From Candidatus Eremiobacterota bacterium (GTDB lineage Bacteria; Vulcanimicrobiota; Vulcanimicrobiia; Vulcanimicrobiales; Vulcanimicrobiaceae): 64,000 nt of DNA. The position numbers and the translations under genes are program-made. Each line of letters opens with the position of its first letter. The first letter of the stretch is position 1. Positions 33,299-62,492 of this stretch are shown here, in pieces. The notes below the pieces were generated by a model. That model made no database searches. It saw nothing but the letters and a program-made list of their open reading frames with translations, and was not told where the DNA came from. The stretch spans positions 1,895,300 to 1,959,299 of the forward strand of contig JAFAYE010000001.1 in assembly GCA_019240525.1 (NCBI GenBank), given 5' to 3'.

Positions 33299-33342
33299 CG
33301 TGCCATAATAGCCACTTAAGAAACGCTTGCTAGCATTAGGCC

Positions 33343-34800: not shown

Positions 34801-37800
34801 TTGCTCAAGGGCTTGCTCCGGTTGAAGAAGCGCGCTATTTTCATAGGGCTCTGTTACGTCGCGGCGTCGCACGGCCGCGTGCTCGCTGAGACGGGCGGCC
34901 TGATCTCGGGGACGGTCTCCGACGATCGCACGCACGCTGGGGTGGCAGGGGCTCAAGTCGTTGCCAAATCGCCGAGCGGAACCTATACGACGGTTACCGA
35001 CAGCAAGGGACACTTTCGTTTTCTGAGCGTGCTGCCCGATAACTACGCGCTATCGGTCACCGACAAGAACTACCTGCCATACTCGGTTACGGTCGTCGTC
35101 CTCAACGCGTCGCAGCAGACCATCAACGTTGCGCTCTCCAAGACCCTCAAGATCATCGCCAGCACGCACGCTCGCTCGTCGGGAAGTGCCTTTCAGCGCG
35201 GAATGACGATCGACACCTACACCGTTACCGGATCGCAAATCCAAACCGTCATGGGCAAGTCGTTCAACTCGCGCGAGGAAGACTTGCTGCGCAGCATTCC
35301 CAGCGTCACCATCGATAAGAGCGGCACGATCTCGATTCGTGGCGGTTTCGCCTTCGAGGCCGCCTACGAGTTCGAAGGCATCGACTACACGACGCCGACG
35401 GCAAATTTACAGAATACGCTGCAGAACATCGCCAACTTCAATTTACTCAACGGCGTCGGCGGCGTGCAGCTTATCCCCGGCGCGGGCGACGCGACGCACG
35501 GCGACACCGGAACGGGCTTGGTGCTGTTCACGGCCAAGAACGGAACGTATCCCACCTACTTCCACGCCGATGTCGAGTCGCTGCTCTTCCCGTACTTGCA
35601 TCAGCTCGGGCTGGAGTGGGGCTGGGCCGATCCTTCACAGCGGCTATCAAACTATGCCGGTTTTATCGGCATCCGCCGCGCTTACCAATACGGTATCAAC
35701 GGAACCGCGGCCAATACGCTGGGCACGCTCGGGACCAACGCCGCCACCTTGGGCAGTACCATCGATCCGAATCTGGTCTACTATTCGCCGCAGTTTCTGA
35801 AGTCGAACGACTTCGTCGACAATCTGATCTACCGGTTCGGTCATAACAACAATCAGCGCTTGCAGTTTTTCGTTCAGGATCAGTCCATCAAACAGACCCT
35901 CGATTACGGCGGCTTTCAATACCTGCCGTACATCTCGGGCGGTACGACTGCGGGCAAATGCTCGCCCTATCCGATCGTTGGCCCGGGCGGCCCGGTAAAC
36001 TCGGCGCAGCAGGAGTACGCCTGCAACTCCCTCATCCCGCTTTTTCCCGGTCAGCCCAGCGCCTCGGCGTTCGTTTCCGAGCCCGACACCTTGCAGAGCC
36101 CGTTTGAAGCGTACAAGCTCGAGTACGATCTGAACCTGGGAAGCTCGACGCTCCTGACGACGCGCTTTTTCCGCACGTTTAGCCAGCAGTCGGAGACGTT
36201 GCCGGCGCAAGGCATCTTCGCCCAGCCCTATGGCGGCAATCGCACGGCGGGGCAGATTGACGGCACGACCCAGCTGGGCACCAAGAACCTGCTCAAATAC
36301 GGCACGATCTACGAGTACGTTGTGCCCTACGGCAATCGCTACGACTTCACGTCGTACACCGCGTTCACGACGCCGGCTTACATTATCACCTACCCGATCA
36401 CCCATCCGCTGCAGCCGCTGCCGTTGCCATATACGTACACCGGCTTGTTGCCGAACAATAACCCGGCAGCGCAACAAGGCCTCGAGGAAGATTTCTTCTC
36501 GCCGGCCTTCTGCGCGCAGCTGAACCTGCATACGGGCTGCGGATACTTGAGCTCGTACTTTCCCGCCGGAGTGCACTTTCCGTTCGAGGAAGACGTCGAG
36601 ACCGTCGCTCAGCAGCAGTACGGAACCTATCTGCAAGATACCATCGAGATGTCGGAACGCTGGAAGGCCGAAGCGGGAGTGCGGCTCGACGGTTACAACT
36701 TCCAGATTCCTACACTGGCCGGCGCTCCCGCTTCGATTCCCGCCGCCGAGCACCAGCGGCTCTACGAGCCGCACCTCGACGCGTCGTATCTGCCCGACAA
36801 CCGCGATACGTTTCGATTCGGATTCGGCCACACGCTCTCGATGCCGCTCCCCAGCCTGCTCGGCGCGGACGTGAGCCAAGTACCGTACGCGCCGTTCGAT
36901 AACATCCCGTCGTACGACAACTCGACGGGTAAGGCCGCGGATTACTGCGGTCCGCACGCCAACGCGCTCTGCTCGAGCTACGGCCAGCAGCTCTATTGGC
37001 TCACCCGCGATTACCGTTATGGCAGTTCGACGTTGGAGACGCCGCTGGTCGGCGCCACCTTCACCAACATCGATTTCTCGTGGGCGCACGCGTTTCGCGA
37101 CGGCGCGGCGTTCAAGCTCACGCCCTTCTACCGTCGCGGCTATAACGTCATCGAGCAGACCGCGCAGATCGTCGGCTTCAACTACCAGACCGGTTCGCCC
37201 GTTTACGGTGACGTCCAATATTCCAACCTCGGCATTCAAAAAGCCACCGGAATCGAAGCGCTGTACACCAAGGAAATTCCGCTCGGAATTTCGATGCAGA
37301 TCGGCGCGACGTACATCAGTCAGTTCGGCAACGAGCCGCCCGGCGCGTTCCTGCAACCGGCAGCGCTTGCGCTCGGCGTGGTCTACCGGTCGCCGGATCT
37401 CTCGCCGTTTCAGCTCAACGCGGCCTTTAACTACAAGAGCGCGCATGGCTGGCGTATCAATCCGGTTATCTACGCGAACTCCGGTTTTCCGTACGGCGCC
37501 GGATACTACACTGCCGTGTATTGCAACGGCATTCCGGTGATCGTTCCCAACACGAGCCTTTCGGTGATCTACTCGCAGACGCCGGGATACATCGATCCGC
37601 TCGATCCAGGAACGTGCACGAAACCGAACATTGCCGCCACCCGTGGTATTTCGGAGCGCGGACTTCCCGGCGGCTTTCTCACGACGCCGCGCGTGGATGC
37701 CGACTTGACCGTCGAGTATCGCCCCGAAGTCCGCGGGCTCGCGCAATCGGTCCTCGGCTTGCAGGTCGTTAACTTATTCAACGAGCTTTATAACGTTCCG

Positions 37801-37983
37801 ATCATCAACGGCTGCTACGGTAATCCGGTGGCGATCGGATTGCAGAGCGGCAACGCCCCCTGCACGTACTCGACGGCACCATACGCGCCGCCCGACGTCA
37901 CGGCCCACTCGAGCGCGCCCTATCTCACGTATCCGAACCTGCCGCCGATTTCGTTTCGCTTCTACTATCAGGTGACCTTATGA
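34801..37983 (+). CDS. TonB-dependent outer-membrane receptor
   Basis: A 1060-residue outer-membrane transporter. After a short signal (A-I-F-I-G-L-C-Y-V-A-A-S) residues 34-112 are a carboxypeptidase-regulatory-like beta-sandwich (G-T-V-S-D-D, F-R-F-L-S-V-L-P). A plug follows at about 140-245 (L-L-R-S-I-P-S-V-T-I, I-S-I-R-G-G), then a long beta-barrel to the C-terminus (F-R-F-Y-Y-Q-V-T-L). It would import a scarce ligand using TonB energy; tonB/exbBD are not in the window. The TTG start has only a G-rich upstream stretch and in-frame TTGs follow, so the exact start is open. It overlaps the next gene by 4 bp and heads an operon with a PstS-like protein, making a phosphorus compound a plausible ligand. 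Confidence 0.87.
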   Translation: MLKGLLRLKKRAIFIGLCYVAASHGRVLAETGGLISGTVSDDRTHAGVAGAQVVAKSPSGTYTTVTDSKGHFRFLSVLPDNYALSVTDKNYLPYSVTVVVLNASQQTINVALSKTLKIIASTHARSSGSAFQRGMTIDTYTVTGSQIQTVMGKSFNSREEDLLRSIPSVTIDKSGTISIRGGFAFEAAYEFEGIDYTTPTANLQNTLQNIANFNLLNGVGGVQLIPGAGDATHGDTGTGLVLFTAKNGTYPTYFHADVESLLFPYLHQLGLEWGWADPSQRLSNYAGFIGIRRAYQYGINGTAANTLGTLGTNAATLGSTIDPNLVYYSPQFLKSNDFVDNLIYRFGHNNNQRLQFFVQDQSIKQTLDYGGFQYLPYISGGTTAGKCSPYPIVGPGGPVNSAQQEYACNSLIPLFPGQPSASAFVSEPDTLQSPFEAYKLEYDLNLGSSTLLTTRFFRTFSQQSETLPAQGIFAQPYGGNRTAGQIDGTTQLGTKNLLKYGTIYEYVVPYGNRYDFTSYTAFTTPAYIITYPITHPLQPLPLPYTYTGLLPNNNPAAQQGLEEDFFSPAFCAQLNLHTGCGYLSSYFPAGVHFPFEEDVETVAQQQYGTYLQDTIEMSERWKAEAGVRLDGYNFQIPTLAGAPASIPAAEHQRLYEPHLDASYLPDNRDTFRFGFGHTLSMPLPSLLGADVSQVPYAPFDNIPSYDNSTGKAADYCGPHANALCSSYGQQLYWLTRDYRYGSSTLETPLVGATFTNIDFSWAHAFRDGAAFKLTPFYRRGYNVIEQTAQIVGFNYQTGSPVYGDVQYSNLGIQKATGIEALYTKEIPLGISMQIGATYISQFGNEPPGAFLQPAALALGVVYRSPDLSPFQLNAAFNYKSAHGWRINPVIYANSGFPYGAGYYTAVYCNGIPVIVPNTSLSVIYSQTPGYIDPLDPGTCTKPNIAATRGISERGLPGGFLTTPRVDADLTVEYRPEVRGLAQSVLGLQVVNLFNELYNVPIINGCYGNPVAIGLQSGNAPCTYSTAPYAPPDVTAHSSAPYLTYPNLPPISFRFYYQVTL

Positions 37984-39170
37984 ACGCTCCACGTTGGTTT
38001 TTGCTCTCCGTCTCCGCCGCGCTGCTCGCAGCCTGCGGCAATAGCGGCGCTTCGGAACCCCCGGTGACGTCGTACGATCCCGCGGCCACGAGCAAACTGC
38101 AGTTTGCCGTCGGCGTCGCGACCATGTCGTTCAACGGCGGCAAGAGCGTAGCGTATGGTTTGAACACCGTCGACACATTGCGTCAGCAAGACGGACTCTC
38201 GGGAGTGCTCTACAGCATCCCGATGATTATCGGACCGACGAGCTTCAACGTCTTGACCTCGACGGAGACGGGCACCGACGTTCAGGACGCCGGGTCGGAC
38301 CTGGGCACGAATCACATCACGTGGGGCACGCTCAATCAATCGCACTGGACGACGGCGCCGCGCGGACCGAAGGCGTCGACCACCGGTGCTTTCGGTTACG
38401 GTCTATGTCCATGTAACTCCGATTCGGGTCCCGGTAACGGCTTCACGCCGCTCTTCCAATCGTTTTATCTGCCGATTTACGGCGAAACCGGCTATATCCA
38501 GCTGTGGTACGGTGGGCCGCCGGCCTTTCCGCAGGCAGGCCCGCCGGAGATCGCGTTAGGTTGGGAAGGGTACTCGCTGGGCTTTGCCGATTTTGCGGTG
38601 ACCCCGGTGGTCGGAACCTATCATTTGTACGCAGCCGTACCGCCGTCGTACGACACACCGCCGAATCCGACGCCGAGTCCCGGACCTAATGGAACGCCCA
38701 CGCCGCCGCCCGGCATTCTCGCGTCCGCGTCCCAACTGACAAACTTGACGCCCTTACCGCAGCTCGGCACACCGACGTTTACTCCCGACCACAACGGCGG
38801 CGGTAAGGTCAACATCACGGCGCCGTCGGGCGTGAGTGAAGTGTTGGTCGAGGTCTTGGCCGTCGGTAACAGCGGCGTCGGCATCTGCGTGCAATCCCAT
38901 CAAACCGACAGTTTCTATACGATCGTTACGAAAAAACCGGGCGCGCAATCGGTTGTTTTGCCCGACGATATCGGGCCGCTCACGCAATCGGGAAAGAAAA
39001 CGCCGACGATTTGTCCTAAAGGGACCTACGAAATCTATGCGGCCGGCGTTGACTATCCGGCTTACGAAGCGTCGTATCCGAATAATCTGAATCAGCTTCC
39101 GCTGATCAAAGGCCCGAACGGCCAGGCCGACGTCACCACCTCCGACGTGCTCACGGGCTCCTATCGGTGA
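37980..39170 (+). CDS. lipoprotein of unknown function
   Basis: A 396-residue lipoprotein (lipobox L-A-A-C at about residue 19), beginning in the ATGA overlap with the TonB receptor stop. The sequence is beta-rich with a Pro-rich linker near residues 223-245 (T-P-S-P-G-P-N-G-T-P-T-P-P-P) splitting two domains. A C-C pair (G-L-C-P-C-N) and isolated Cys may form disulfides. I recognise no family. Tight coupling to the receptor suggests it is a surface or periplasmic partner, as SusD-like or other lipoproteins are for their receptors, but it does not resemble SusD. Confidence 0.7.
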   Translation: MNAPRWFLLSVSAALLAACGNSGASEPPVTSYDPAATSKLQFAVGVATMSFNGGKSVAYGLNTVDTLRQQDGLSGVLYSIPMIIGPTSFNVLTSTETGTDVQDAGSDLGTNHITWGTLNQSHWTTAPRGPKASTTGAFGYGLCPCNSDSGPGNGFTPLFQSFYLPIYGETGYIQLWYGGPPAFPQAGPPEIALGWEGYSLGFADFAVTPVVGTYHLYAAVPPSYDTPPNPTPSPGPNGTPTPPPGILASASQLTNLTPLPQLGTPTFTPDHNGGGKVNITAPSGVSEVLVEVLAVGNSGVGICVQSHQTDSFYTIVTKKPGAQSVVLPDDIGPLTQSGKKTPTICPKGTYEIYAAGVDYPAYEASYPNNLNQLPLIKGPNGQADVTTSDVLTGSYR

Positions 39171-41131
39171 GAGGGCGCTTTTCGATCGCCAAAGCAGTTG
39201 CCGCGGCGATGATGGCGGCGACGGCGGCTTGCGGGGGCGGCGGCATGACGTTCGACTCGGTGGTGAACTCGCCGGGTGGCGGTTCGCACGATCCGCACAC
39301 GAAACTCGTCAACGTCAAAGTTACCGTGACGATTCCGGCGCAGAAGAAGCGCACGCGAATCGATCCGGATTATATTTCCGTCAACACCGGATCGCTGGTT
39401 ATTGGCTTAGCGTCAGTGAACGGCGTCGGCGTGACCGGCGTCAATCCAACGGTCATCAACACGCTCGCGCACTCGCACGGATGCAAAGCGAACGCCGGAG
39501 CGACGGTTTGCTCGGCAACCGCTCTGGGATCGCCGGGCAACGACGTCTTTGCGGTAACGACGTATGCGGCAACGAACGCCGACGGCGCGGTCCTTTCAGT
39601 CGGCACGGTCCAAGCGCAAATCGGCCAAAGCGGCGGCTCGACGCAGATCAGCAATACGCTGCCGCTGACCTTAGGCGGCGTGATCGCCGGTCTCAAGCTC
39701 TCCCTTTTTCCGGCCGGCGCCAAACGCGGAAAAGCAGCACGTGCTACCGTCACCTTGCTCGCCTTCGACGCCAGCGGTGCGCAGATCGTCGGACCGAGCG
39801 ATTACGAGAATCCTATCGCGCTGCAAATCCAGGGCGACACCGATAACGCCTTTTCGCTGCACGCGAATGGAAAAACGGGCGCGTCTCTAACGATCGCCAA
39901 GCCGACCTCGAACATAATCCTGACCTACGACGGCAACTCGCAAGCCTCGCCGATAACCCTTGCGGCGACCACGAGCGGCTCGGTCGGTAAGAGCGCCAAC
40001 TTCGCGCTGCACGGAAAAACGCCGCCGCCGCCGGTCGGCACGATCTACGCGCTGAATTTCGGAACCAACAGCGGCCAAACCGCGACCGTAACCGAGTACG
40101 ACGGTACGGCGAAAGGCAACGCGACGCCGGAGCGGACGTTGCAACTGAGCTCAAAGCTTTACGCGCGGAGCATTGCGGTGGACGCCAGCGGAAATCTGTA
40201 CGTCGGCTACTTCGATACGCCCGTCGGTTCTCAACCGTCGGGCACTCCCGATAAGGGAAATGAGATTGCGGTCTATGCGCCGGGCGCGAGCGGCAGCGCG
40301 TCGCCAACCTTCACCATTACGTCGGACCAGAATTCGCAGACGGCGATTTTCCCGGCCTACATGACGTTCGACCCCTCGGGAGATTTGGTGACGTACGGTT
40401 CGACGGGTGTCGACGGGAACGGCGGAAACGATGCCGTGCTGACGTATTCGCCGGGAAGTATGGGCGCGGTTGCGCCGGCGTACGGCTGGGCGTTCGTTGC
40501 GCCGTTACTGACCTATCCCGGCCCAACCGGCTTGGCCATCGACGCTTCAGGCAACTTTTACGTCAACGGCGCGCTGCACACGTCGCTCGGACCGAGTTAC
40601 GGCACCTTCGTGGCACCCGCTGCCGACATTGGCAATCCCGCGGTGAACCCGTCGCGCACGATTCCGTGGAATTACAGCAACACGCAGCTCCCGCCACTCT
40701 TCACGACCGACGTCGCGATTGACGCCAGCGGCGAACCGTTCATCGCGAACAGCGTAACGCAGGGGAGCGGCAGTTCAACGTCGTGCCAGGGCAACGCCAA
40801 CGTTTATTCGGCGAGCCCGAGTGGCGGCGTCACGAACGTACCGCCGCTGCGGGTCTTGACCTTGGGCGGCGTGTTGACCAAGAACTCACAATGCGGCAAC
40901 CCCACCTATCCGCTGGTGCCGTACTTCCCCTCGATCACGCTCTTCGGCACAATCCTCTTCGTCGCCGACGACTTCAACAACGCGATCGATGCCTACAAGG
41001 CCTCCGCGCACGGCAACGTACAGCCGAGCCTGCAAATCACCGGCTCGGCCACCGGGCTGAATGCGCCGATCGCGGTGGTGATCACATCAGCTTCCGGGCA
41101 GGCCAAGGCCCGTCCGGCTCAGTCCCTTTGA
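39167..41131 (+). CDS. two-part propeller lipoprotein
   Basis: A 654-residue protein from GTG 39167, overlapping the preceding stop by 4 bp. The signal (A-K-A-V-A-A-A-M-M-A-A-T-A-A-C) suggests a lipoprotein. Residues 50-290 look like a beta-sandwich/Ig-type region, then from about 300 NHL-like blades appear (S-I-A-V-D-A-S-G-N-L-Y-V-G-Y, G-L-A-I-D-A-S-G-N-F-Y-V-N, V-A-I-D-A-S-G-E-P-F). It is the third gene of the TonB operon. Function unknown; an accessory binding protein at the outer membrane is a reasonable guess. Confidence 0.75.
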   Translation: MRGRFSIAKAVAAAMMAATAACGGGGMTFDSVVNSPGGGSHDPHTKLVNVKVTVTIPAQKKRTRIDPDYISVNTGSLVIGLASVNGVGVTGVNPTVINTLAHSHGCKANAGATVCSATALGSPGNDVFAVTTYAATNADGAVLSVGTVQAQIGQSGGSTQISNTLPLTLGGVIAGLKLSLFPAGAKRGKAARATVTLLAFDASGAQIVGPSDYENPIALQIQGDTDNAFSLHANGKTGASLTIAKPTSNIILTYDGNSQASPITLAATTSGSVGKSANFALHGKTPPPPVGTIYALNFGTNSGQTATVTEYDGTAKGNATPERTLQLSSKLYARSIAVDASGNLYVGYFDTPVGSQPSGTPDKGNEIAVYAPGASGSASPTFTITSDQNSQTAIFPAYMTFDPSGDLVTYGSTGVDGNGGNDAVLTYSPGSMGAVAPAYGWAFVAPLLTYPGPTGLAIDASGNFYVNGALHTSLGPSYGTFVAPAADIGNPAVNPSRTIPWNYSNTQLPPLFTTDVAIDASGEPFIANSVTQGSGSSTSCQGNANVYSASPSGGVTNVPPLRVLTLGGVLTKNSQCGNPTYPLVPYFPSITLFGTILFVADDFNNAIDAYKASAHGNVQPSLQITGSATGLNAPIAVVITSASGQAKARPAQSL

Positions 41132-41165
41132 CGCACTCACTCGTCCGAAAAAGGAAAGCCTACAC

Positions 41166-42632
41166 ATGAGAAAGACCCTCGCTACTCTGGCCTTGGCAGC
41201 CGCGCCGGTGCTCGTTTTGAGCGCCTGCAACGGAAATGCCGGCGGAGGTTCCGGAGTGGCTGCGCTTCCGAACTCCGGCGCGCCGGCATCGCAGCACAGC
41301 CGCTTCCATCACAACGACAATGGCCCGCAGGATTTGCACGCGGGCGGCGCTACGTTCCCGGCGCAAGCCTATAACGGCGCAAGTCAGCCTGTCGGCACTT
41401 ACAATCATCCGCAAGCGCCTCCCGCATCGGGTTCGCTCTTCGCGCACTACGGCGGCGTGGGAACGATCTATTACTGTCTCACCGGCAGCGGCTTCGGTCG
41501 CAAGGAGTTCACCGGCCAATCGATCACCGCAACCCAGGCGTGCGCCGGCCTCGGCGACTCGCCCGTGGGTTTCGGCGCTCGTCAGGATCCGCTCGATTTC
41601 GTCGGCAGCGACGTCGCGATGACCGAAGGCTCACAGACGACGCCGGGCGATTGCTGCGCTAGCTACAGCTACTACGCGATTAACCGCGCGGCGACGTACG
41701 GTCAGCCGTTCGAGTTTCCGACCTTGGGCGGCCCAATCGTCTTCGGTTATCGTCCGCAAGACTTCCCGAAGGTCTCGATCAAGCTCTCGACCTGGACGTA
41801 TTGCGCGATCGTCAACGGCACGGTCAACAACTGGAACGATCCGGCGATCTCGGCCGATAACGGCCAGTCGGTAACCGGCGGCGTTTCGCAAACGATCACG
41901 TTCTACTACCGTTCCGACGGTAGCGGCACGACCTACAATCTCACCAGCCACCTGTATGCGGCGTGCAACCCGGGCTCGTGGCCCGCGCCGTACAACACCT
42001 ATCCGTACCAAGGCTCCGGTCGGGACGCTTCATTCCCGTATCAGGCGACCCAGAACTGGCCGATCACGACGCCGTCGAACTTCGTTGGCGCGAGCGGCAA
42101 CCCGGGCGTTCTCGCCGGTATCCAATCGACGCCGTACGGCACGGGATACGTTGAAGGCGCGTACGCCAAAGTCGCCAACCCGAAAGTCTCTCAGGCGCTC
42201 CTCCAAAGCGGCTACAATAACCAAGCCAACGAGCCGTACTGGGTCAGCGCGACCAACAAGAGCGCGGTGTCCGCCGCACTCAAACACGTTACGGCGAGTG
42301 CAATCTCGTACGGAACCGCCAGCGACTACCCAACGACTCCCGGCTCGCTCAATTCGAGCACCCCGTGGTGCCAGCTCTTCGTTCCGTATTCGGTCTTCGC
42401 GTTACCGCCGGCTAAGACGTATCCAATCGTCGGCGTTACCTACATGCTGTTCTACGGAAATAATCAGGGCGTTCACCTCAGCGATAAGACGACGTTGGTG
42501 AACTACATCATCTCCAAGCCGGCACAAAACATCATCAAGAGTCTGGAGTACGCTCCGCTCTCGAGTTCCATTCACGGCGCTGTCAAGGCCGCTCTGACCG
42601 GCACCGCCAGCCAGCCCTCCTGTCTCCAGTAA
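41166..42632 (+). CDS. PstS-like phosphate-binding lipoprotein
   Basis: A 488-residue lipoprotein (lipobox L-S-A-C). The fold signature is that of PstS-type periplasmic binding proteins: G-G-A-T-F-P-A-Q-A-Y near residue 58, D-F-V-G-S-D-V-A-M-T, and the phosphate-loop motif R-S-D-G-S-G-T-T-Y-N, equivalent to the Ser-Gly-Thr phosphate contacts of PstS. It is longer than PstS (about 320-370) with extra loops and several Cys. No pstC, pstA or pstB is adjacent; instead it sits in an operon with a TonB receptor, so it may present phosphate (or a phosphate-like ligand) to that system. Confidence 0.85.
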   Translation: MRKTLATLALAAAPVLVLSACNGNAGGGSGVAALPNSGAPASQHSRFHHNDNGPQDLHAGGATFPAQAYNGASQPVGTYNHPQAPPASGSLFAHYGGVGTIYYCLTGSGFGRKEFTGQSITATQACAGLGDSPVGFGARQDPLDFVGSDVAMTEGSQTTPGDCCASYSYYAINRAATYGQPFEFPTLGGPIVFGYRPQDFPKVSIKLSTWTYCAIVNGTVNNWNDPAISADNGQSVTGGVSQTITFYYRSDGSGTTYNLTSHLYAACNPGSWPAPYNTYPYQGSGRDASFPYQATQNWPITTPSNFVGASGNPGVLAGIQSTPYGTGYVEGAYAKVANPKVSQALLQSGYNNQANEPYWVSATNKSAVSAALKHVTASAISYGTASDYPTTPGSLNSSTPWCQLFVPYSVFALPPAKTYPIVGVTYMLFYGNNQGVHLSDKTTLVNYIISKPAQNIIKSLEYAPLSSSIHGAVKAALTGTASQPSCLQ

Positions 42633-42634
42633 GG

Positions 42635-43414
42635 ATGCGAACGTTTAACGCGCGCCGCGGTAGCGCGGCGCGCGTTAATCCTCGCGCCGTTCTTGCGAGC
42701 GCCGCAATTCTGGCGGCAGGATGCGGCGGCTCGAGTTCTTCCTCCACGATGCCGGCGCAAGGAGCGCAGGCCGTCCACGTGCGCCTCGTCGACGGCGCGC
42801 CGGCGCTTGAGACCTACATCGGCGGATTCTTGGAAAAGATCACTCCGGCGTACGCCACCCTCAACGGCGTCACGGTAACGTCGGCATTGTCGTACGGGAC
42901 GATCACGCCGTTTACAACCTGCGCCGCCGGAGCGGCATCGATCATCGCGCGTAACGACCAAGGCTACGCGGTCGGTCCGCTCAAAACGCCGAACCTCACC
43001 GCGGGCGGTCACTATACGCTGATCATCGTTGGTGCGTATCCGCACTACAGCGTGCTCGCAATTTCCGAACCGGCAACCAGCGGAAGCGCTCAGCTCTCGT
43101 TGTATGAGGCGTCGCCGTCAACCGCGCAAGCCAGTTTTGGAAGCTTTCGCGCGTCGAACAAGTCCGAGTTCAAGTCACTCGGCAGCGCGAGCTACGGGAG
43201 TGAGGTGACCGTCTCGCTGGGCAAGAGCGTCACCGATTTCGGCGGATACGCTGGTCCGGCCGGCGCACCGCTCGGCACGGTGACTCCATCGCAAATCGAC
43301 TCGTTCGATTCTAAGAACGCGCTTCCGTTCAATGCGGTCGCTCGGCTTTCGCTCTTTCTCTTCGATTCGACGACGAGCAGCAGTCAACGAGTCTTCGGGA
43401 GCCTCGACCAATGA
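42635..43414 (+). CDS. DUF4397-domain lipoprotein
   Basis: A 259-residue lipoprotein with lipobox A-A-G-C at about residue 29. The DUF4397 beta-sandwich is shown by V-H-V-R-L-V-D-G-A-P-A, G-V-T-V-T-S-A-L-S-Y-G, and H-Y-T-L-I-I-V-G. Family members are envelope proteins of unknown role. The start ATG 42635 is only 2 bp after the previous stop and lacks a spaced ribosome binding site. The first 15 codons overlap a perfect 15-bp hairpin (42645-42678). The stop overlaps the next gene's start by 4 bp. Confidence 0.78.
   Translation: MRTFNARRGSAARVNPRAVLASAAILAAGCGGSSSSSTMPAQGAQAVHVRLVDGAPALETYIGGFLEKITPAYATLNGVTVTSALSYGTITPFTTCAAGAASIIARNDQGYAVGPLKTPNLTAGGHYTLIIVGAYPHYSVLAISEPATSGSAQLSLYEASPSTAQASFGSFRASNKSEFKSLGSASYGSEVTVSLGKSVTDFGGYAGPAGAPLGTVTPSQIDSFDSKNALPFNAVARLSLFLFDSTTSSSQRVFGSLDQ
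42645..42678 (+). terminator. 15-bp GC hairpin inside the DUF4397 5' coding region
   Basis: Bases 42645-42659 pair perfectly with 42664-42678 around a four-base loop (GTAG). The stem is nearly all GC apart from four A/T pairs at its base (TTAA). No T tract follows. It begins 12 bp after the PstS-like stop, where a terminator would be expected, yet it also encodes codons 4-15 of the next gene. Confidence 0.6.
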
Positions 43415-44490
43415 AAGCTTCGGCACTCTTTCTCACATTGATGTCCGCTGCGGCCATCGGCTCGGCGATCGCCGGCTGCGGCGCGGTCGGCCCGGCGCCC
43501 TCGGGCATTGGCACTTCGGCGCCCGAGCCGACGGCGACACCCGCGGCCAGACTTCTCTACGTCGATCACAACGGGACGTTCTACGAATACCGGCTGCCGT
43601 TGACGCCGAGCTCAACGCCCGAGCGAACGCTCGTTGAATGGCCGAAGCTTCCGCTTCCGCCGGTGATCGCAGCCGATCAATACGGAAATGTTGCGGTCGC
43701 CAGTTCGGAGTCGATTCGTTTCTTTCGCGCGCCGATCACGAGTTTTGCCCAAGCGCGCGCATACAGCACGCTCAAACTGACTCCGGCGATTACACAGATC
43801 GGCGATTCAGGCGCCGACCTCGTGGACATTGAGTACGATCCCAACGAAAATCTCTGGCTGCTCAACAATCTGGGCGCGCTCGTCTCGGAACTGCGTGCGC
43901 CGATCCGCAAATCGAGCGTTGCGGCCGTTGAAATCGGCTTCGGCGCGCCGGGTTCGAAGACCGCCGGCTACACCACGCTCGTGCAGGCGCGTTTCGACGT
44001 CAACGCGGCGCTCTACGTCTACGCCAGCTCTGCGACGCGATCGCGTCTGTTCAAGACCAGTTTTCCCTACGCCAAGCAGCCCGGCTCGATTGGAGTGAAC
44101 CTCGCCCAAGCAGATTTTGTCGATTCGAGCCAGTGGCCACCGACGTCGCCGATTGCGCCATCGCTGCTGCTGGGACAGTATTTCGGCCCGCTGCGCTCAC
44201 CCACACCCGGCTCGCCCCCATCGCCTCCCGCCGACGTGACCGCGCAGTTTCCGCAGCCTTTTAACGAAGAGCAAGGTCGTTTTCCGGAGTCGCACGTCAA
44301 CTCGGTCTCCGGCGCACTCATCGCCGATACGTATCGTAACAGCCTCTACACACTCGATGCGACCGACGGAAGTCTGCTCGTCTACGGTCTGCCGCTCGAC
44401 AACAACGCGAAGACCAAGGTATCGTTGCCGTGTTTGGGCGGCGCCGCCGAGTGCGACCTCAAGCCCGAGCATCTCTTTCTCGCACCGTAG
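43411..44490 (+). CDS. propeller-like lipoprotein, last gene of the TonB operon
   Basis: A 359-residue lipoprotein (lipobox I-A-G-C at about residue 23), started within the ATGA overlap with the DUF4397 gene. Blade-like segments include R-L-L-Y-V-D-H-N-G-T-F-Y-E-Y, V-I-A-A-D-Q-Y-G-N-V-A-V-A, V-D-I-E-Y-D-P-N-E-N-L-W-L-L and the C-terminal N-S-L-Y-T-L-D-A-T-D-G-S. A Pro/Ser-rich loop lies at about 255-275. No catalytic motif. Likely another binding component of the envelope complex encoded by the operon. Confidence 0.72.
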   Translation: MKASALFLTLMSAAAIGSAIAGCGAVGPAPSGIGTSAPEPTATPAARLLYVDHNGTFYEYRLPLTPSSTPERTLVEWPKLPLPPVIAADQYGNVAVASSESIRFFRAPITSFAQARAYSTLKLTPAITQIGDSGADLVDIEYDPNENLWLLNNLGALVSELRAPIRKSSVAAVEIGFGAPGSKTAGYTTLVQARFDVNAALYVYASSATRSRLFKTSFPYAKQPGSIGVNLAQADFVDSSQWPPTSPIAPSLLLGQYFGPLRSPTPGSPPSPPADVTAQFPQPFNEEQGRFPESHVNSVSGALIADTYRNSLYTLDATDGSLLVYGLPLDNNAKTKVSLPCLGGAAECDLKPEHLFLAP

Positions 44491-44567
44491 GTTGCGCCAG
44501 GAGGCAGGCTGGAGTATCATAACCAGACATTTGCTACGTCATCGTAGATGACACAAGGAGGTACACC

Positions 44568-46601: not shown

Positions 46602-46663
46602 GGCTCCCGCTCACCCGCTGCGGAGAAGGGAAGGCTTCGCAGCGGCGCGCAGAAGCTCGGCCT

Positions 46664-47386
46664 ATGCCCGCCCATTGCGATGCCAGTCGGGTTGCTGTTG
46701 TCCTCGCGATAACGCTCGGATTATTCGGCTGTAACGGCGCCTTCGGCGAACGCGTGCATGAAACGGTTGCGCAGTCGGTGGCCACTGGCGCGGCCCCGCG
46801 CGTACGCGTCGAGAACGTGGCCGGCACCGTTCGCATCGTCGGATGGGGGAAGCCCGAGGCCGAGGTTATCGCAACGAAGTACGGCTACGACGCGCAAGAA
46901 CTGCGCAATATTTCGGTCGCAGTTCGCTCGGAACCCGCCGGCGTCGCCGTCGTAACAAGTTATGCGGCGGGTTCGCAGGGGGGCGGAGGGCACCAAGGCG
47001 GCGTGAACTATCGCATCTCGGTTCCCACGGCCGCCTCGCTGAACGTGCAGAATACCGCCGGAGCGGTCGATGTGGACGGGATCGCCGGCGACGTCGCAGT
47101 CACGACAGAGGCCGGTGAGATTACCGCGAGCGTTGGACGCGTTGCCGGAAGCCGAGCGATCGATTTGAACGCGACGACCGGCGCGATAACCTTGACGATT
47201 GCCGGCGGCAGCAGCGCGCGCGTCGAGGCCGGCAGCACCGTCGGCAACTTTAGCAGCGACGTTCCCGGAGTATCTGCGGTGCGCGAGAATGTTGTCGGGT
47301 CGCGCGGTTCGGGAACGATCGGTACGGGAAGCGGACGAATTCGACTGACCACAACCACCGGCGCGATCGCGCTGCGCGAACGATAA
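46664..47386 (+). CDS. DUF4097-like lipoprotein
   Basis: A 240-residue lipoprotein (lipobox L-F-G-C). The body is a beta-solenoid of the DUF4097 type: V-R-V-E-N-V-A-G-T-V-R-I-V-G-W, then successive short turns L-N-V-Q-N-T-A-G-A-V-D-V-D-G and I-D-L-N-A-T-T-G-A-I-T-L. Members are often encoded beside envelope stress genes, with no known activity. ATG 46664 has a weak ribosome binding site. Its stop overlaps the first phosphoesterase gene by one base (TAATG), so the two are coupled. Confidence 0.78.
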   Translation: MPAHCDASRVAVVLAITLGLFGCNGAFGERVHETVAQSVATGAAPRVRVENVAGTVRIVGWGKPEAEVIATKYGYDAQELRNISVAVRSEPAGVAVVTSYAAGSQGGGGHQGGVNYRISVPTAASLNVQNTAGAVDVDGIAGDVAVTTEAGEITASVGRVAGSRAIDLNATTGAITLTIAGGSSARVEAGSTVGNFSSDVPGVSAVRENVVGSRGSGTIGTGSGRIRLTTTTGAIALRER

Positions 47387-48789: not shown

Positions 48790-48809
48790 GCTCGGAGGGA
48801 GGTAACGCC

Positions 48810-50228
48810 ATGGTTTTAGGAAAAAAACGTGGCGTGCTTCGTTATCTTTGCGCAGCGCTTATCGGCGCCTTCGTTCTGAATGCGTGCTCCGGCGGCGCGT
48901 CCGCAGGCAACTCGGCCGGCGTCTCGCTTCCGCAGTCGGGGAGCGGCAGCGGCGGAAGCTCGACGTATATCCAGCACGTCGTGATCGCGATTCAAGAAAA
49001 CCGCAGCTTCGACGATTTCTTCGCGACCTTCCCGGGCGCCGACGGAACGACGTACGGCGAGATGAAGAACCCGTCGGGCTCCGGCGACGTCGAGGTTCCG
49101 TTGACCGAAGTCAACTTAATCGATCCGTGCGATTGGGGCCACTCGTACAAAGGGTTTGTTTCCGATTACGACGGTGGAAAGATGGACGGCTTCGGCAACG
49201 AGGGCGGCGGTCCGAAGTGTCCGGGAAAAGCGGCGACTCAAGTTTACCAGTACGTCAATCCGCAGCAGTTGGCGCCCGATTGGGACATCGCGCAGCAATA
49301 CGTGCTCGCCGATCACATGTTTCAGACGCAAGGCAGCGGCAGTTTCACCGCGCACCAAGATCTGATCGCCGGCGCGACGATTATCAACGCGCCGACCGAC
49401 ACCAAGAGCCTGGTCGATTTTCCCTCGACGATCCCATGGGGTTGCGACGCCCCGAAAGGCACTAAGACGTCGCTGCTGGTGAACCTGGGTACGAAACTCA
49501 GGGACGAATACCATAAAGGGCCGTTTCCGTGCCTGACCTACGACACGATGCAAACCTTGCTCGACGCCAAGGGTGTTAGTTGGAAGTATTACTCACCGCC
49601 CGAACCTCACGGCACCGGCGAATACTGGAACGCGTTCGACGCGATTCAGGCCGTGCGTGAGGGTCCCGAGTGGAAAACCAATATCGCCTCGACCAATCAA
49701 TTCTTCACCGACATCAGCGCCGGGAATCTGCCGTCGGTTTCATGGATCGTTCCTGATAACGCCGATTCCGACCACCCGGCAACTCCCTCCGATACCGGAC
49801 CGTCATGGATTGCCTCGATCGTGAACGCCGTCGGCCAAAGCTCGTATTGGGACTCGACCGCGATCATCGTCGTCTGGGACGATTGGGGCGGTTTCTACGA
49901 TCACGTTCCGCCGCCGCTGCGTGACAACTGGGGAGGCCTGGGTTTTCGCGTGCCGATGATGGTCATCTCACCGTACGCACGTGAAGCGTATCCGAGTCAG
50001 CCGGGTTACATCTCCCACACGCAGTACGAGTTTGGCAGCATCCTGAAGTTCATCGAAAACATCTGGGGTCTCGGCAGCTTGGGCACGACCGACGTGCGCG
50101 CGACGAGCATTGTTGACTGCTTCGACTTCACCCAGTCGCCGCGGCCCTTTACCACGATTCCGTCGACCTACTCGAAGAGTTACTTTCTGCACCGCGCGCC
50201 GTCGTATAAACCGGTCGACACGGAATAA
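48810..50228 (+). CDS. phosphoesterase B (PLC/AcpA family)
   Basis: A 472-residue lipoprotein, close paralog of copy A over its whole length (I-Q-H-V-V-I-A-I-Q-E-N-R-S-F-D-D, C-D-W-G-H-S-Y-K-G, G-S-G-S-F-T-A-H-Q-D, W-D-D-W-G-G-F-Y-D-H). The catalytic Glu/Asn, Ser and Asp-Asp residues are kept. Lipobox L-N-A-C. A GGAGGGAGG stretch stands about 8 nt before ATG 48810, a stronger translation signal than copy A has. Probably the same extracytoplasmic activity with a different substrate range. The MBL-fold gene begins 26 bp downstream. Confidence 0.9.
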   Translation: MVLGKKRGVLRYLCAALIGAFVLNACSGGASAGNSAGVSLPQSGSGSGGSSTYIQHVVIAIQENRSFDDFFATFPGADGTTYGEMKNPSGSGDVEVPLTEVNLIDPCDWGHSYKGFVSDYDGGKMDGFGNEGGGPKCPGKAATQVYQYVNPQQLAPDWDIAQQYVLADHMFQTQGSGSFTAHQDLIAGATIINAPTDTKSLVDFPSTIPWGCDAPKGTKTSLLVNLGTKLRDEYHKGPFPCLTYDTMQTLLDAKGVSWKYYSPPEPHGTGEYWNAFDAIQAVREGPEWKTNIASTNQFFTDISAGNLPSVSWIVPDNADSDHPATPSDTGPSWIASIVNAVGQSSYWDSTAIIVVWDDWGGFYDHVPPPLRDNWGGLGFRVPMMVISPYAREAYPSQPGYISHTQYEFGSILKFIENIWGLGSLGTTDVRATSIVDCFDFTQSPRPFTTIPSTYSKSYFLHRAPSYKPVDTE

Positions 50229-50254
50229 CGCGCCCCGCATCCGAAGAGAGTTCT

Positions 50255-51658
50255 ATGGATTTTCGCATCGTTAGCCACGCTTGTCTCGACGTTCGGGCGA
50301 GCGGCAAGCGGCTGGTTATCGATCCGTGGCTGAACGAACCAACCTACTGGTCGTCGTGGTGGCACTGCCCGCCGCCGCTCTTCGGCGACGACATCTTTAC
50401 TGCCGACTACATCTACATCACGCACTGGCACTTCGATCATTTCGATCCGCGGACGCTGCGCAAGTTCGCAAAAACGACCACCGCCATCGTGCCGAAGTTT
50501 CCCATCTCCGGTCTACGTCAGCAGCTCGAGCAGATCGGCTTCGAACGCATCGTCGAACTGCGTCACGGCGAACGAATGAAGCTCGGCGACGACTTTTGGC
50601 TGACGAGCTATCAAATTAGTTTTCAAGACGACAGCGTCGCGGTGATGGAGGCAGATGGCACGGTGCTCATCGACCTCAACGACGCCAAGCCGCTTCCCTC
50701 GACGTGGCGTACGTTCCGCGCGAAGTATCCGAAGGTAGACTTTATGCTGCGCAGTCACTCGCCGGCATGGTCGTATCCCACGCGCTACACGTTCGAGGAT
50801 CCGGCCGACCGTCTACCGGTTGACGCGCGAACCTACATGGAGGCGTTCGTCGCCGCCGCGCAACAGCTTCGACCGCGTTACGCGGTGCCGTTCGCGAGCG
50901 GGATCTGCCATCTGCATCGCGAGGTGCTCGACGAAAACCGGTTTCTCGTCTCCGCGAACGATATGCGCGCCTACGCCGCAGCGAACGCCGCACGTTTGCC
51001 GGAAACAGCGCTGACGATTATGCCGGTGGGGAGCCGCTGGTCGTCAGAATCGGGATTCGAACTGACCGATAATTCGGTCGACGACATGGTCGCCTACGCC
51101 GAGCAGCGCGCGCAGACCGAGAGCGAGCGTTTGGAGAAGACGTACCGCTCGGAAGCGGCCAAGGAAATCGCCTTCCCCGATTTTTCTGGGTACTTCGAGA
51201 AATTTTTCCGCGCGATCGGCTTGGTGCGTCCGCTCTTGCGCAGAGCGCGCTGGGTCTTTCCCATCGAGGGGCGCGAATACTGGTGCGTCGATTTTGCAAA
51301 GGCGAAGATCGAGCGCAGCGAAGCGATGCCGGCCGAGTACGACAGTATCGTTACCGTTAGTCCGGCGGTCCTTTCCGCATCGTTGCGCAACGACGTCTTC
51401 ACTAACGTCGACATCTCCAAGCGCTGGCGCGTGCATATCAAACGCGGCAGCGCGATGCGCCACTTCATCGTCACCAACCTGCTCTTGCTGTACGAAGCGG
51501 AGTATCTCTCGCCCAAACGACTCTTTTCGTGGCGGTTCGTCAGCGGCTACGCGCGGCGACTGCCCGAAGTGATCGATTACGTCCGGATGGCATTCGTCAC
51601 CGCGACGCGGGGTAAAGATTCGCTGGTGACGGCCGTGACCAGCATTGCGGAGGGTTAG
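50255..51658 (+). CDS. MBL-fold metallohydrolase, CMAH/UlaG-like
   Basis: A 467-residue protein without signal peptide, so cytosolic. The metallo-beta-lactamase metal motif is T-H-W-H-F-D-H-F-D (His, His, Asp, His at about residue 55), after V-I-D-P-W-L and W-W-H-C-P-P-P-L, a layout like CMP-N-acetylneuraminate hydroxylase and related UlaG/NAPE-PLD-like enzymes. Residues 330-430 (V-S-P-A-V-L-S-A-S-L, F-T-N-V-D-I-S-K-R-W) resemble an SCP2-like lipid-binding tail, a tentative call. It lies between phosphoesterase genes B and C with short gaps. A lipid or phosphodiester substrate is possible but unproven. Confidence 0.8.
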   Translation: MDFRIVSHACLDVRASGKRLVIDPWLNEPTYWSSWWHCPPPLFGDDIFTADYIYITHWHFDHFDPRTLRKFAKTTTAIVPKFPISGLRQQLEQIGFERIVELRHGERMKLGDDFWLTSYQISFQDDSVAVMEADGTVLIDLNDAKPLPSTWRTFRAKYPKVDFMLRSHSPAWSYPTRYTFEDPADRLPVDARTYMEAFVAAAQQLRPRYAVPFASGICHLHREVLDENRFLVSANDMRAYAAANAARLPETALTIMPVGSRWSSESGFELTDNSVDDMVAYAEQRAQTESERLEKTYRSEAAKEIAFPDFSGYFEKFFRAIGLVRPLLRRARWVFPIEGREYWCVDFAKAKIERSEAMPAEYDSIVTVSPAVLSASLRNDVFTNVDISKRWRVHIKRGSAMRHFIVTNLLLLYEAEYLSPKRLFSWRFVSGYARRLPEVIDYVRMAFVTATRGKDSLVTAVTSIAEG

Positions 51659-51659
51659 C

Positions 51660-53024
51660 ATGATTCGAACGTTGAGCGCGCTCCTGCTCGCTGCGTCGCT
51701 GACCGCCTGTGGCGGCGGCGCCGCATTTGCGCCGTCCTCCCGCGCCACCGAAGCAAACGATGCCGTTCGTTCGCCGATCAAGCACGTGGTGCTGATCGTT
51801 CAGGAGAATCGAACCTTCAACGACTTTTTTGCGACCTTTCCCGGCGCCGACGGAACGACCACCGGAAAAGTGGAGCCCGATGCGCAGTGCCACATCCGCA
51901 AAGCGAAGACGATCGCGCTCACCGAAAACAATCTCGTGTTGCCGAGCGATCTCGATCACAGCTATCAAGGGTTCGTCGTCGCGCGCGACGGCGGTAAGAT
52001 GGACGGTTTCGACAAGGTCCTGACCGGCAGCGGGCTACCGGAGTGCACGTATCCGTATCAATATACCGATCCGAGTCAAATCACGCCCTACTGGCAGATG
52101 GCCCAGCAATACACGTTGGCCGAGCACATGTTTACGACGCAAGGCAGCAGCAGCTTCACCGCGCATCAAGACCTCATCGCGGGCGGGACGGTCGTTAGCC
52201 CGAACGAAGCGATGGTCAACTTGCCCTCGTGTTCGGGCGGCAACTGCATTTGGGGATGCGACGCGCCGTCGGGCACGCACACCTCGCTCATCTCACGACA
52301 CGACGTATTCCAGCAGGGCAAAGGTCCGTTTCCCTGCGTCACCTACGCGACGTTGCGCGATTTGCTCGACGCCAAGAAGGTCTCCTGGCGCTACTACGTT
52401 CCGCCGATGTGCTGCGCCGCGTACGGCAAGCTGCTCAGCGCCTTTGACGCAATCAAAGCGGTTCGCTACGGCTCGGAATGGACCGACGGTCATATTTCCA
52501 GCCCGCAGACGAACATCTTTAACGATCTTACGAGTCAACAGCTTCAGGCCGTGTCGTGGGTGATTCCCGACGAGAACGAATCCGATCATCCCGGCACGTC
52601 ATCCGACACTGGCCCCTCGTGGGTAGCGAGTGTCGTCAATGCGATCGGCGAAAGCGCGTATTGGAAATCCACCGCAATCGTCGTCGTTTGGGACGATTGG
52701 GGAGGCCTCTACGACAACATCAACCCTCGACAGTTCGGATACGGCGGCTTAGGCCTGCGCGTGCCCGCCATAATTATCTCGCCGTATGCGAAGCCCGCGT
52801 ACATTTCGACCACGCACTACGAGTTCGGCAGCATTCTGAAGTATATCGAAGAGAACTGGAATTTGGGTTCGCTGAACTCGAGCGACGCGCGATCGACGAG
52901 CATCGGCGATTCCTTCGATTACGGGCAGAATCCGATTGTGTTTACGCCGATCGGCTCCAAATATTCGAAGGCGTATTTCCTGCACGCCAAACCATCGTTT
53001 GTACCCCCCGATACCGATTTTTAA
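51660..53024 (+). CDS. phosphoesterase C (PLC/AcpA family)
   Basis: A 454-residue lipoprotein. ATG 51660, with GGAGG about 6 nt upstream, is preferred over the longer frame from 51645 inside the MBL gene. Lipobox L-T-A-C. Markers are Q-E-N-R-T-F-N-D, G-S-S-S-F-T-A-H-Q-D and W-D-D-W-G-G-L-Y-D-N, so the catalytic set is intact. It carries extra Cys pairs absent from A and B (C-S-G-G-N-C-I-W-G-C and M-C-C-A-A-Y) and is the most divergent of the plus-strand trio. Expected role is the same extracytoplasmic ester hydrolysis. Confidence 0.9.
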   Translation: MIRTLSALLLAASLTACGGGAAFAPSSRATEANDAVRSPIKHVVLIVQENRTFNDFFATFPGADGTTTGKVEPDAQCHIRKAKTIALTENNLVLPSDLDHSYQGFVVARDGGKMDGFDKVLTGSGLPECTYPYQYTDPSQITPYWQMAQQYTLAEHMFTTQGSSSFTAHQDLIAGGTVVSPNEAMVNLPSCSGGNCIWGCDAPSGTHTSLISRHDVFQQGKGPFPCVTYATLRDLLDAKKVSWRYYVPPMCCAAYGKLLSAFDAIKAVRYGSEWTDGHISSPQTNIFNDLTSQQLQAVSWVIPDENESDHPGTSSDTGPSWVASVVNAIGESAYWKSTAIVVVWDDWGGLYDNINPRQFGYGGLGLRVPAIIISPYAKPAYISTTHYEFGSILKYIEENWNLGSLNSSDARSTSIGDSFDYGQNPIVFTPIGSKYSKAYFLHAKPSFVPPDTDF

Positions 53025-55265: not shown

Positions 55266-55346
55266 AGGAATTCGCTTCAAGCCGCCGCATTGAGCAGGCA
55301 AGTCCTCTCTCTTAAGAACGACAACTATGCATAGGAGACTTACGTC

Positions 55347-56369: not shown

Positions 56370-56494
56370 AAAAGTCAAAAATAGTTATTTTCCGGGCAGG
56401 AAACCGGGCGCTTTGCTCGCATTCAAGGCGGGCGGCGCCCCGCACGGCCGGTGCGTCAAACCTCAAAACACCTAGCTATTGAAGGAGTTCAAAC

Positions 56495-56998
56495 GTGCGT
56501 TTTCCCCTTCTAATCGCGAGTAGTGCCATTGCGGCGAGCTTGGTCCTCGGGGCCTGCTCGGGCGGCACCGGCTCGTCGAGCCTGCCGTCGTCAGGCGCCC
56601 AGCAGATCGCTCAGGGTCATACGAGCCTGATCCCGGTTGGGTTACATATCGACGCCAAGAACCCGTGCCCCAGCTCGAAGTACATCTTCTGCATCGACGT
56701 CAGCGCCAGCAGCTCGGGCCCGTATGTCTGCTTCTCGAGCGACAGCTGCGGCTCGCCGACGAGCCCGGTGTTCTACGCGTACGGTTACATCGATACCACC
56801 AAAGGCAAATCGGCCGCCAAGAAGATCAGCGAATTCTGGGAGCCGTTCCCCGGCAACCCGACCGAGCAGTATCTCGTCCTGAAGAAAGCCCCGAAGAAGG
56901 CCAGCACCAAGGTCAAGTATGTTGACTACGTGTACGCTTGCACCGCGCCGAGCAGCGGCTGCGGCAGCACGTATGCCATCGGGATCATCCCGCAGTAA
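56495..56998 (+). CDS. small Cys-rich lipoprotein of unknown function
   Basis: A 167-residue lipoprotein (lipobox L-G-A-C). GTG 56495 is decided by AAGGAG 8 nt upstream. The mature part has seven further Cys (N-P-C-P, F-C-I-D, V-C-F-S, S-C-G-S, A-C-T-A, G-C-G-S), which can form three disulfides, and a Lys-rich stretch (L-K-K-A-P-K-K-A-S-T-K). No family was recognised. It is followed by the strong terminator at 57037, so it is the last gene of the plus-strand block. Confidence 0.75.
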   Translation: MRFPLLIASSAIAASLVLGACSGGTGSSSLPSSGAQQIAQGHTSLIPVGLHIDAKNPCPSSKYIFCIDVSASSSGPYVCFSSDSCGSPTSPVFYAYGYIDTTKGKSAAKKISEFWEPFPGNPTEQYLVLKKAPKKASTKVKYVDYVYACTAPSSGCGSTYAIGIIPQ

Positions 56999-57036
56999 CA
57001 TCGACTCGCGGCTAGCGATAGCCTGAAGTTGAAGAA

Positions 57037-57069
57037 GGGGCCCGGCGAACGCCGGGCCCCTTTGTTTTT
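57037..57069 (+). terminator. strong intrinsic terminator between convergent blocks
   Basis: A perfect 10-bp GC stem (57037-57046 with 57051-57060), loop GAAC, followed by TTTGTTTTT. It ends the plus-strand block 39 bp after the lipoprotein stop at 56998. On the minus strand the hairpin is followed by TTCTTCAACTT, so it may also stop the phosphoesterase operon arriving from the right. Confidence 0.92.
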
Positions 57070-57086
57070 ATGGCGGCCTTCGCAGT

Positions 57087-61108: not shown

Positions 61109-62492
61109 CGCCGATGATGTTGCCACCTCGGCGCGTTGCCGGCAAAGTCCGCTCGTACTCTCTCCAGTAGGCCGCGGTCTTGGCGCCGGCAATTTTTTTG
61201 AACTTGCGCGGGGCTTGCAGGTAATCGAAAACGGCAGGATCGGTCGCTGGATCGTTGGCGCGCTTGTCGCTTGCCGCCAGCTGCGACAGGCCAAAGTTGT
61301 CCTCGATGAAGCGCAAGACGCTCGCCGTTTCGTATTGCGTATGCGTCACCGAGCCTTGCTTTGCATACGGCGAAACGACGATCAGCGGTACGCGAAAACC
61401 GAGGCCGTCGTAATCTTCGTAGACGGGCGCAACCGGATCGAACATCCCACCCCAATCGTCCCACATGATGAAGATCGCAGTGGATTTCCAAAAGGGACTC
61501 GTGCCGACGGCGTTGACGACGCTGGCAACCCAGGCCGGTCCGTCGTGTGCATTGGACCCGGGGTGATCGGATGTCGCATTCAGCGGTGCAATCCATGTGA
61601 CCGCTGCGAGCTGCCCGTTGCCCACGTCCGTCAGAAACCGCGATGGTGGATTGATGACGTTTGCGGTCCAGTCAGGACCGTCGTAAATCTTCTTGTCGGC
61701 TTGATACGACGACCATAGGCCGCCGTCGCCGTCGACCGCCCCGGCGTAAAACCGCCAGCTCACTCCGGCGGCGTCGGCTTCCGAGGCGATCGTAGGATTC
61801 CCGAAGCACGCCTGGATTCTGCCACCCAGAGTGCGGTCTTTGAGGAGCGTCGTAACGGTGTCGGTTTTTCCGCCCTCACAGCCCCATGGTCCGTCGGGGA
61901 AGTCGACGGCATGACTGGCGTAGGCGGCGACGAGGTACTGATGCGCGATGAAGCTGCCGTCGAGATTTGAGGCGAACATTTCGTCGGCCAGCGCGTACTG
62001 CTCGGCCATTGTCCAGTATGGTGCGATCTGCCCGCGCGGCACGTACGAATAGGGCTGATTGGGAGGTCCCGAAGGACTCATGCCTTCTTGATCCCATCCA
62101 TCGAGCTTGCAATCGGTGCCGGGCAGCTTGCCCTGACCGTCGCAGGCGGCAAAGAAGGCTGCCGATCCGTGACCGACGTCCCACTTCGTGGCGAGATTGC
62201 GAGGCTTCAGCTCTATCTTGCGCCCGTTTTCGTCGTAGCCGTATGTCGCGGTGGTCGCGCCCGGGAAACCCATAAAAAGGTTGTTGAACGAGCGATTCTC
62301 CTGAACGACGAAAACGACGTGCGAAATCGGCGATCCTTTCGAACTGGTCGCCGGGAGCATGCTCGTTCTGGAGAAATTTGAAACGCCGCCTGGGGCGTGC
62401 TCCGCACTGGAGCAGGCACTCGCGATCAAGGCGACGCCGGCCGCACCGCAGAGCGCCAGAATACGAAATCGCTTCACTGCGTTCATCTCCAT
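61101..62492 (-). CDS. phosphoesterase G (PLC/AcpA family)
   Basis: A 463-residue lipoprotein with a different signal peptide from D-F (F-R-I-L-A-L-C-G-A-A-G-V-A-L-I-A-S-A-C). Catalytic markers are Q-E-N-R-S-F-N-N, Ser in L-D-G-S-F-I-A-H-Q-Y and W-D-D-W-G-G-M-F-D. ATG 62492 and ATG 62486 are both possible; neither has a spaced ribosome binding site, and the sedolisin gene stops 3 bp upstream, so coupling is likely. It is the first phosphoesterase of the minus-strand tandem and probably the founder of the D-G set. Confidence 0.9.
   Translation of the reverse strand: MEMNAVKRFRILALCGAAGVALIASACSSAEHAPGGVSNFSRTSMLPATSSKGSPISHVVFVVQENRSFNNLFMGFPGATTATYGYDENGRKIELKPRNLATKWDVGHGSAAFFAACDGQGKLPGTDCKLDGWDQEGMSPSGPPNQPYSYVPRGQIAPYWTMAEQYALADEMFASNLDGSFIAHQYLVAAYASHAVDFPDGPWGCEGGKTDTVTTLLKDRTLGGRIQACFGNPTIASEADAAGVSWRFYAGAVDGDGGLWSSYQADKKIYDGPDWTANVINPPSRFLTDVGNGQLAAVTWIAPLNATSDHPGSNAHDGPAWVASVVNAVGTSPFWKSTAIFIMWDDWGGMFDPVAPVYEDYDGLGFRVPLIVVSPYAKQGSVTHTQYETASVLRFIEDNFGLSQLAASDKRANDPATDPAVFDYLQAPRKFKKIAGAKTAAYWREYERTLPATRRGGNIIGDD

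Follow-up and report, generated by a model that had tools for sequence, protein, structure and literature searches.

What is a PstS-like lipoprotein doing in an operon that begins with a gene for a TonB-dependent receptor, and do the lipoprotein phosphoesterases encoded nearby belong to the same system? The window analyzed here, by which we mean the whole 64-kb stretch of DNA (contig 1, 1895300-1959299, of a 2.8-Mb source genome), carries both. Its source is a soil bacterium from the little-studied phylum Eremiobacterota. The original prediction was that surface hydrolysis of phosphoesters, capture by a lipoprotein, and TonB-driven import across the outer membrane form a single phosphorus-scavenging system. 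The part of that idea that gave the operon a role in phosphate acquisition gained strong support from Pho boxes and from retained phosphate contacts, but the part that placed the phosphoesterases in the same system was not supported. We conclude that the operon (34801-44490) very probably encodes a TonB uptake module under Pho control.

Organization of the receptor operon

The six genes of the operon lie on the plus strand, and neighbouring genes overlap or abut. Ahead of them is a module-specific gene for a LuxR-type (GerE) regulator (33343..34641, plus strand; PF00196, E value of 4e-14), and the syntenic genomes have an orthologue in the same position. The first gene of the operon encodes a putative Oar-like TonB-dependent receptor of 1060 aa (34801..37983) with an N-terminal CarboxypepD_reg domain (E value of 7e-14); in the profile search the match to the barrel was weak (1e-5, just under the cut-off) and the plug domain gave no match. 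No convincing relative of the receptor was found among PDB sequences; full-length homologues are present across the class.

LP2 (37980..39170), the lipoprotein encoded by the second gene, is found paired with the receptor throughout the class. Its model (mean pLDDT of 65) contains two FN3/Ig-like sandwiches that flank a poorly predicted middle, and comparison with known structures returned generic FN3/Ig matches only. LP2 was considered as a SusD protein and rejected, since no operon protein matched a SusD/RagB profile and the model, of moderate quality, appears FN3/Ig-like. The next product, LP3 (39167..41131), is a propeller-type lipoprotein with weak NHL/SBBP matches that is syntenic in three genera; beta-propeller lipoproteins are scattered over the window and the genome and are therefore not specific to this locus. 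It is followed by the PstS-like lipoprotein (41166..42632; PF12849, 5e-16; TIGR00975, 4e-29), a syntenic DUF4397 lipoprotein (42635..43414; PF14344), and LP6 (43411..44490), a syntenic lipoprotein that is the last of the module and is also encoded in its second copy. The genes, order, and coordinates that had been predicted were confirmed.

The PstS-like protein had been described as lacking PstCAB partners. This description holds at the locus, where there is no pstCAB and where the 41166 product is not the PstS of a pstSCAB transporter, but not genome-wide: a canonical pstSCAB operon with its own PstS lies away from the window (contig positions 2662018-2665648). The source genome also carries a phoB-phoR-pstB cluster (775517-778276) and encodes TonB_C proteins. 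A cultivated member of the Baltobacteraceae, the isolate Vulcanimicrobium alpinus WC8-2, is known and has a Gram-negative envelope (PMC9758169). A gene for a beta-helix lipoprotein (44568-46601) follows the module in the window and was not found in this position in relatives; low-phosphate loci of Flavobacterium encode lipoproteins with weak homology to pectate lyases and polygalacturonases (PMC8115612).

Conservation of the operon and its second copy

The order LuxR, receptor, LP2, LP3, PstS-like protein, DUF4397 protein, and LP6 is shared by the genus of the window and two others (G026 and G029), with the PstS-like gene relocated ahead of the receptor gene in G001 and G026. A second full set is present in the source genome (L040 and L084; contig positions 2159675-2169390); its proteins share 55 to 85% identity with those of the first, and its order (LP3, PstS-like protein, DUF4397 protein, LP6, receptor, LP2) is a rotation of the first. 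LP2 is encoded in 19 of 35 genera, and the receptor-LP2 pair is common in the class beyond the three syntenic genera. In most of the nearest families this pair is adjoined by a PstS-like gene; among eight genomes that are more distant, six have the gene there (G031, G032, G033, G045, G047, and G048) and two do not (G051 and G052).

Among named genomes, LP2 relatives come almost entirely from "Candidatus Eremiobacterota" metagenome-assembled genomes, several of which have sample names that refer to palsa, bog, or Antarctic soil. Module homologues also occur in records named Rhodospirillales (L145 and L149); L149 matches G032, a genome that is assigned to the window's family in the genome set, and the Rhodospirillales label of L149 is probably wrong.

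Pho boxes and control of the operon

The Pho box of this lineage was derived from true pst operons. Canonical pstS is preceded, in most of the 12 genomes of the class that were checked, by two or three CTTAAC-type repeats that recur every 11 bp. The motif resembles the cyanobacterial SphR box (CTTAACCT, with a 3-bp linker; PMC1906773) in its tandem CTTAAC-type repeats and 11-bp period, but it occurs here in Eremiobacterota and often has two repeats rather than three; we found no earlier description of a CTTAAC-type Pho box in Eremiobacterota.

In the source genome the exact form, TTAA-N7-TTAA, is present at five loci: canonical pstS, a porin-like gene beside phoBR-pstB, another receptor gene (1838472-1841303), a sulfatase-like gene, and a gene for a small secreted protein. 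It is absent from the 64-kb window. A gene for a Pho84-like transporter beside the boxed receptor gene has a close variant of the box, and together with a PF04185 gene these two constitute a second phosphate locus (L123/L072; 1835047-1841303). The boxed porin-like protein (L121; 773151-775214, next to phoBR-pstB) has a triple Pho box and an N-terminal copper-amine-oxidase-type domain of the same kind as that encoded by a window gene at 32106-33263.

In seven of eight other genera, an exact box lies approximately 105 to 215 bp upstream of the closest homologue of the window receptor gene; with 3 to 13 exact sites per genome, the chance of a box at that position is about 0.0003 to 0.001 per genome. 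The receptors of G020 and G024, which were first picked as controls, were also boxed and were counted as homologues. An additional box is located close to the PstS-like gene in G032 and G033.

Within the window's genus, as well as in G026 and G029, it is the LuxR gene and not the receptor gene that has a box in its promoter, and this box is degenerate. On the combined pattern the module very probably belongs to the Pho regulon. The window site (33304..33336, plus strand) reads CATAAT-N5-CTTAAG-N5-CTTGC-TAGCAT, that is, half sites spaced at 11 bp followed by a -10-like hexamer, and has the best position weight matrix score in the window (13.6 bits). For the window's genus the LuxR promoter boxes score about 8 to 17 bits, within the top 1 to 11% of genes, against a background that is conservative because it includes the other phosphate loci. 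Eight genomes have a 31-bp pattern, TAAT-N6-TTAA-N5-SCTTGYTAGCAT, seven of them at a single site and one at two; the promoter of this LuxR gene is always among these sites.

The receptor promoter of the window (34689..34742, plus strand) has no Pho box of consensus quality (6.8 bits), with a single half site, CTTAAC, at 34689-34694. The presence of just one half site at the receptor promoter in the window's genus, and the degeneracy of the LuxR promoter box there, count against the explanation preferred below. It does contain a dyad (GGATGC...CATCCCC) beside TAGCAT (34711-34742), and the corresponding pattern, GGATGY-N-CCCY-TAGCAT, is conserved upstream of the receptor gene in eight genomes. 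This dyad is a plausible LuxR-type operator. We postulate a relay for the window's genus, in which PhoB would activate the LuxR gene at 33343 and the product of that gene would in turn activate the operon, whereas in sister genera PhoB would act directly on the receptor gene. The proposal that the LuxR-type protein might be the regulator of the operon was strengthened to the extent that its gene is a conserved part of the locus and has a Pho box in its promoter, and its regulatory role is suggested by these promoter features.

The PstS-like protein and its ligand

An AlphaFold model of the PstS-like protein (pLDDT of 78) finds its best PDB folds among DING/PstS proteins, with TM scores (normalized to the target) of 0.72 to 0.79. 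Alignment with canonical PstS shows that the phosphate contacts T10, F11, S38, D56, R135, S139, G140, and T141 are kept in the 41166 product and in its direct orthologues, apart from a T10-to-S change in one orthologue. In both fold and contact residues, then, the 41166 product has the features expected of a phosphate-binding PstS protein. These proteins, which we call class A, have intact contacts across three genera. Class B comprises the paralogue in the second copy of the module, at 2161.7 kb, and its counterparts in seven relatives, in which T10 is replaced by D and D56 by A or S; in most of them S139 is also changed to A or G, and the second-copy paralogue has lost three contacts. From this difference, class A should bind phosphate, and class B probably does not or may bind another ligand. 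Since class B proteins are found within otherwise identical modules, phosphate binding would not be necessary for every copy. An intact and a degenerate PstS-like gene are in tandem in G033 (L056), and in G010 (L053) a degenerate one adjoins two PF04185 genes.

From the gene order, its conservation, the Pho boxes, and the binding residues, we infer the transport function, its ligand, the membrane side, and the LuxR relay as follows. Upon phosphate starvation the operon would produce TonB-dependent machinery that brings phosphate, or a compound that bears it, across the outer membrane, with LP2 as the receptor's obligate lipoprotein partner. Orthophosphate would be bound by the PstS-like lipoprotein, which might capture it on the cell surface and deliver it to the receptor; alternatively, the protein might receive orthophosphate below the outer membrane and hand it to the separate pstSCAB system. 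The neighbouring phosphoesterases are an expanded group of secreted hydrolases that may feed uptake indirectly and are probably not coregulated. Taken as a whole, we consider this explanation probable.

The alternative that survives best is that the cargo is larger than orthophosphate, for example, a phosphoester, a phytate-like compound, a metal-phosphate complex, or a nucleotide, and that the PstS-like protein acts after phosphate has been released in the periplasm. Large ligands are the usual cargo of TonB receptors, orthophosphate could be served by another, Pho-boxed porin in the source genome, and class B paralogues have an altered pocket. Flavobacterium PUS loci and PhoB-controlled receptors of Caulobacter are likewise thought to take up organic phosphorus (PMC8115612, PMC11208175). 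However, the module has no dedicated gene for a periplasmic phosphatase, and the orthophosphate site of class A is unmodified; we regard a larger cargo as somewhat improbable. A more elaborate version of surface capture is rather doubtful, and we offer it tentatively: a PstS-family lipoprotein at the surface would hand orthophosphate to the TonB receptor in a two-stage capture under the PhoB-to-LuxR relay, phosphate would thereby be actively transported through the outer membrane, and the diverged second copy would be tuned to another phosphorus ligand.

The neighbouring phosphoesterases

Two islands of PF04185 lipoprotein phosphoesterase genes lie downstream of the operon. The first (47386..53024, plus strand) has three such genes (47386-48789, 48810-50228, and 51660-53024), with a gene for an MBL-fold protein (50255-51658) between them; the latter protein lacks a signal peptide and probably resides in the cytoplasm. 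The second consists of four overlapping minus-strand genes (57087-58436, 58426-59778, 59768-61108, and 61101-62492), the starts of three of which were revised (58436, 59778, and 61108). All seven products have lipoboxes and the E-N-S-D-D catalytic residues, numbered on AcpA (2d1g) by aligning the QEN, S175, and DD residues with the QEN, GSF, and DD motifs, so that the predicted set of seven lipoprotein phosphoesterases with intact AcpA-type residues was confirmed.

The cluster extends past the window, with 15 genes in 35 kb, and the genome encodes 52 PF04185 proteins, mostly lipidated, of which 49 have the full catalytic set. In that set they resemble AcpA/PF04185 acid phosphatases and phospholipases C, but they differ in their number and lipidation and score far below the curated NCBIfam cut-offs. 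The window's genus has about 20 to 70 PF04185 candidates per genome, compared with 3 to 17 in most other genera of the class. Genes for secreted sedolisin-like serine peptidases are recurrent neighbours of PF04185 genes at several loci, including the window (62496..63596, minus strand) and L039, and this pairing suggests a general secreted-hydrolase island.

In the single-system view, the phosphoesterases would release phosphate at the surface, the PstS-like protein would capture it, and the receptor would import it, as one jointly regulated unit. Besides the intact catalytic residues of all seven enzymes, adjacency in the window speaks for such a unit, as does the recurrence of the order module, DUF4097, propeller, and PF04185/peptidase genes in three genomes of the genus (G001, G003, and G005). 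By chance, a 9.7-kb block drawn at random would lie within 3 kb of a PF04185 gene in 18% of cases but would be followed by at least seven in the next 18 kb in only 0.6%. Outside the genus no adjacency to PF04185 clusters was found: in G026 and G029 the nearest genes are 7 to 9 kb away, about what their density predicts. The second copy of the module has one PF04185 gene about 5 kb away and otherwise none adjacent. Genera with the PstS-like module do have more PF04185 genes (P = 3e-4), an association that is weak and confounded by common descent, and G032 and G045 carry the module with only 9 and 11 PF04185 genes, respectively. PF04185 genes are present in almost all genomes of the class, so TonB operons in genomes devoid of phosphoesterases could not be used to argue against a single system.

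A strong Pho box was found at 1 of the 52 PF04185 genes (661646-662968), and there was no enrichment (at 10 bits or more, 1/52 compared with 16/250 for other genes; Mann-Whitney P = 0.39); no box was found at the PF04185 promoters of the window, which score -1 to 8 bits. With co-occurrence confined to neighbouring genes within the genus and a weak association between genera, and with no Pho-box enrichment, the claim of one system that includes the phosphoesterases was not sustained, and we consider a jointly regulated unit unlikely. The window's PF04185 islands are part of a genome-wide family expansion and probably lie outside the regulon of the operon.

The weakest explanation, a generic sugar or peptide receptor operon in which the PstS fold was co-opted for another ligand, can draw on the fact that Oar-type receptors with CarboxypepD_reg domains are widespread and on the loss of phosphate contacts in class B, but it is very unlikely given the Pho-boxed receptor promoters of seven other genera and the intact class A contacts.

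Comparison with known systems

One of the two nearest counterparts of the uptake module is the phosphate utilization system (PUS; PusCD) of Flavobacterium, in which receptor-lipoprotein pairs are induced by phosphate depletion (PMC8115612). In PUS loci, and by prediction in the module, a TonB-type receptor is combined with a lipoprotein partner, and some PUS loci lie beside phosphoesterase genes (PMC8115612). Unlike the Pus lipoproteins, which are of the SusD type, the module has no SusD protein and has instead a PstS-family lipoprotein, LP2, propeller lipoproteins, and a LuxR regulator; furthermore, plant-associated PUS carriers lack PstSABC (PMC8115612), whereas the source genome has pstSCAB. 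In Caulobacter, the other near counterpart, TonB receptor genes belong to the PhoB regulon and uptake of phosphate compounds has been proposed, and the available text of that report describes no operon with a PstS-like lipoprotein (PMC11208175). The window protein is like PstS/DING proteins in its fold and in all class A phosphate contacts; it differs in its length of about 488 aa, its large insertions, its lipid anchor, and its association with a TonB receptor rather than with pstCAB.

The distinctive part of the operon is that a PstS-family lipoprotein is encoded with a TonB receptor, a combination for which no description was found in the open-access literature. Phosphate is usually considered to enter through porins, with a binding protein needed in the periplasm only. 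If the explanation preferred here, a Pho-regulated TonB import module, is true, active import of phosphorus through the outer membrane, with a protein of the PstS family as partner, would exist in some soil bacteria. In addition, Eremiobacterota gain a usable Pho-box motif with which the phosphate regulon can be mapped, and that regulon is set apart from their striking expansion of secreted phosphoesterases.
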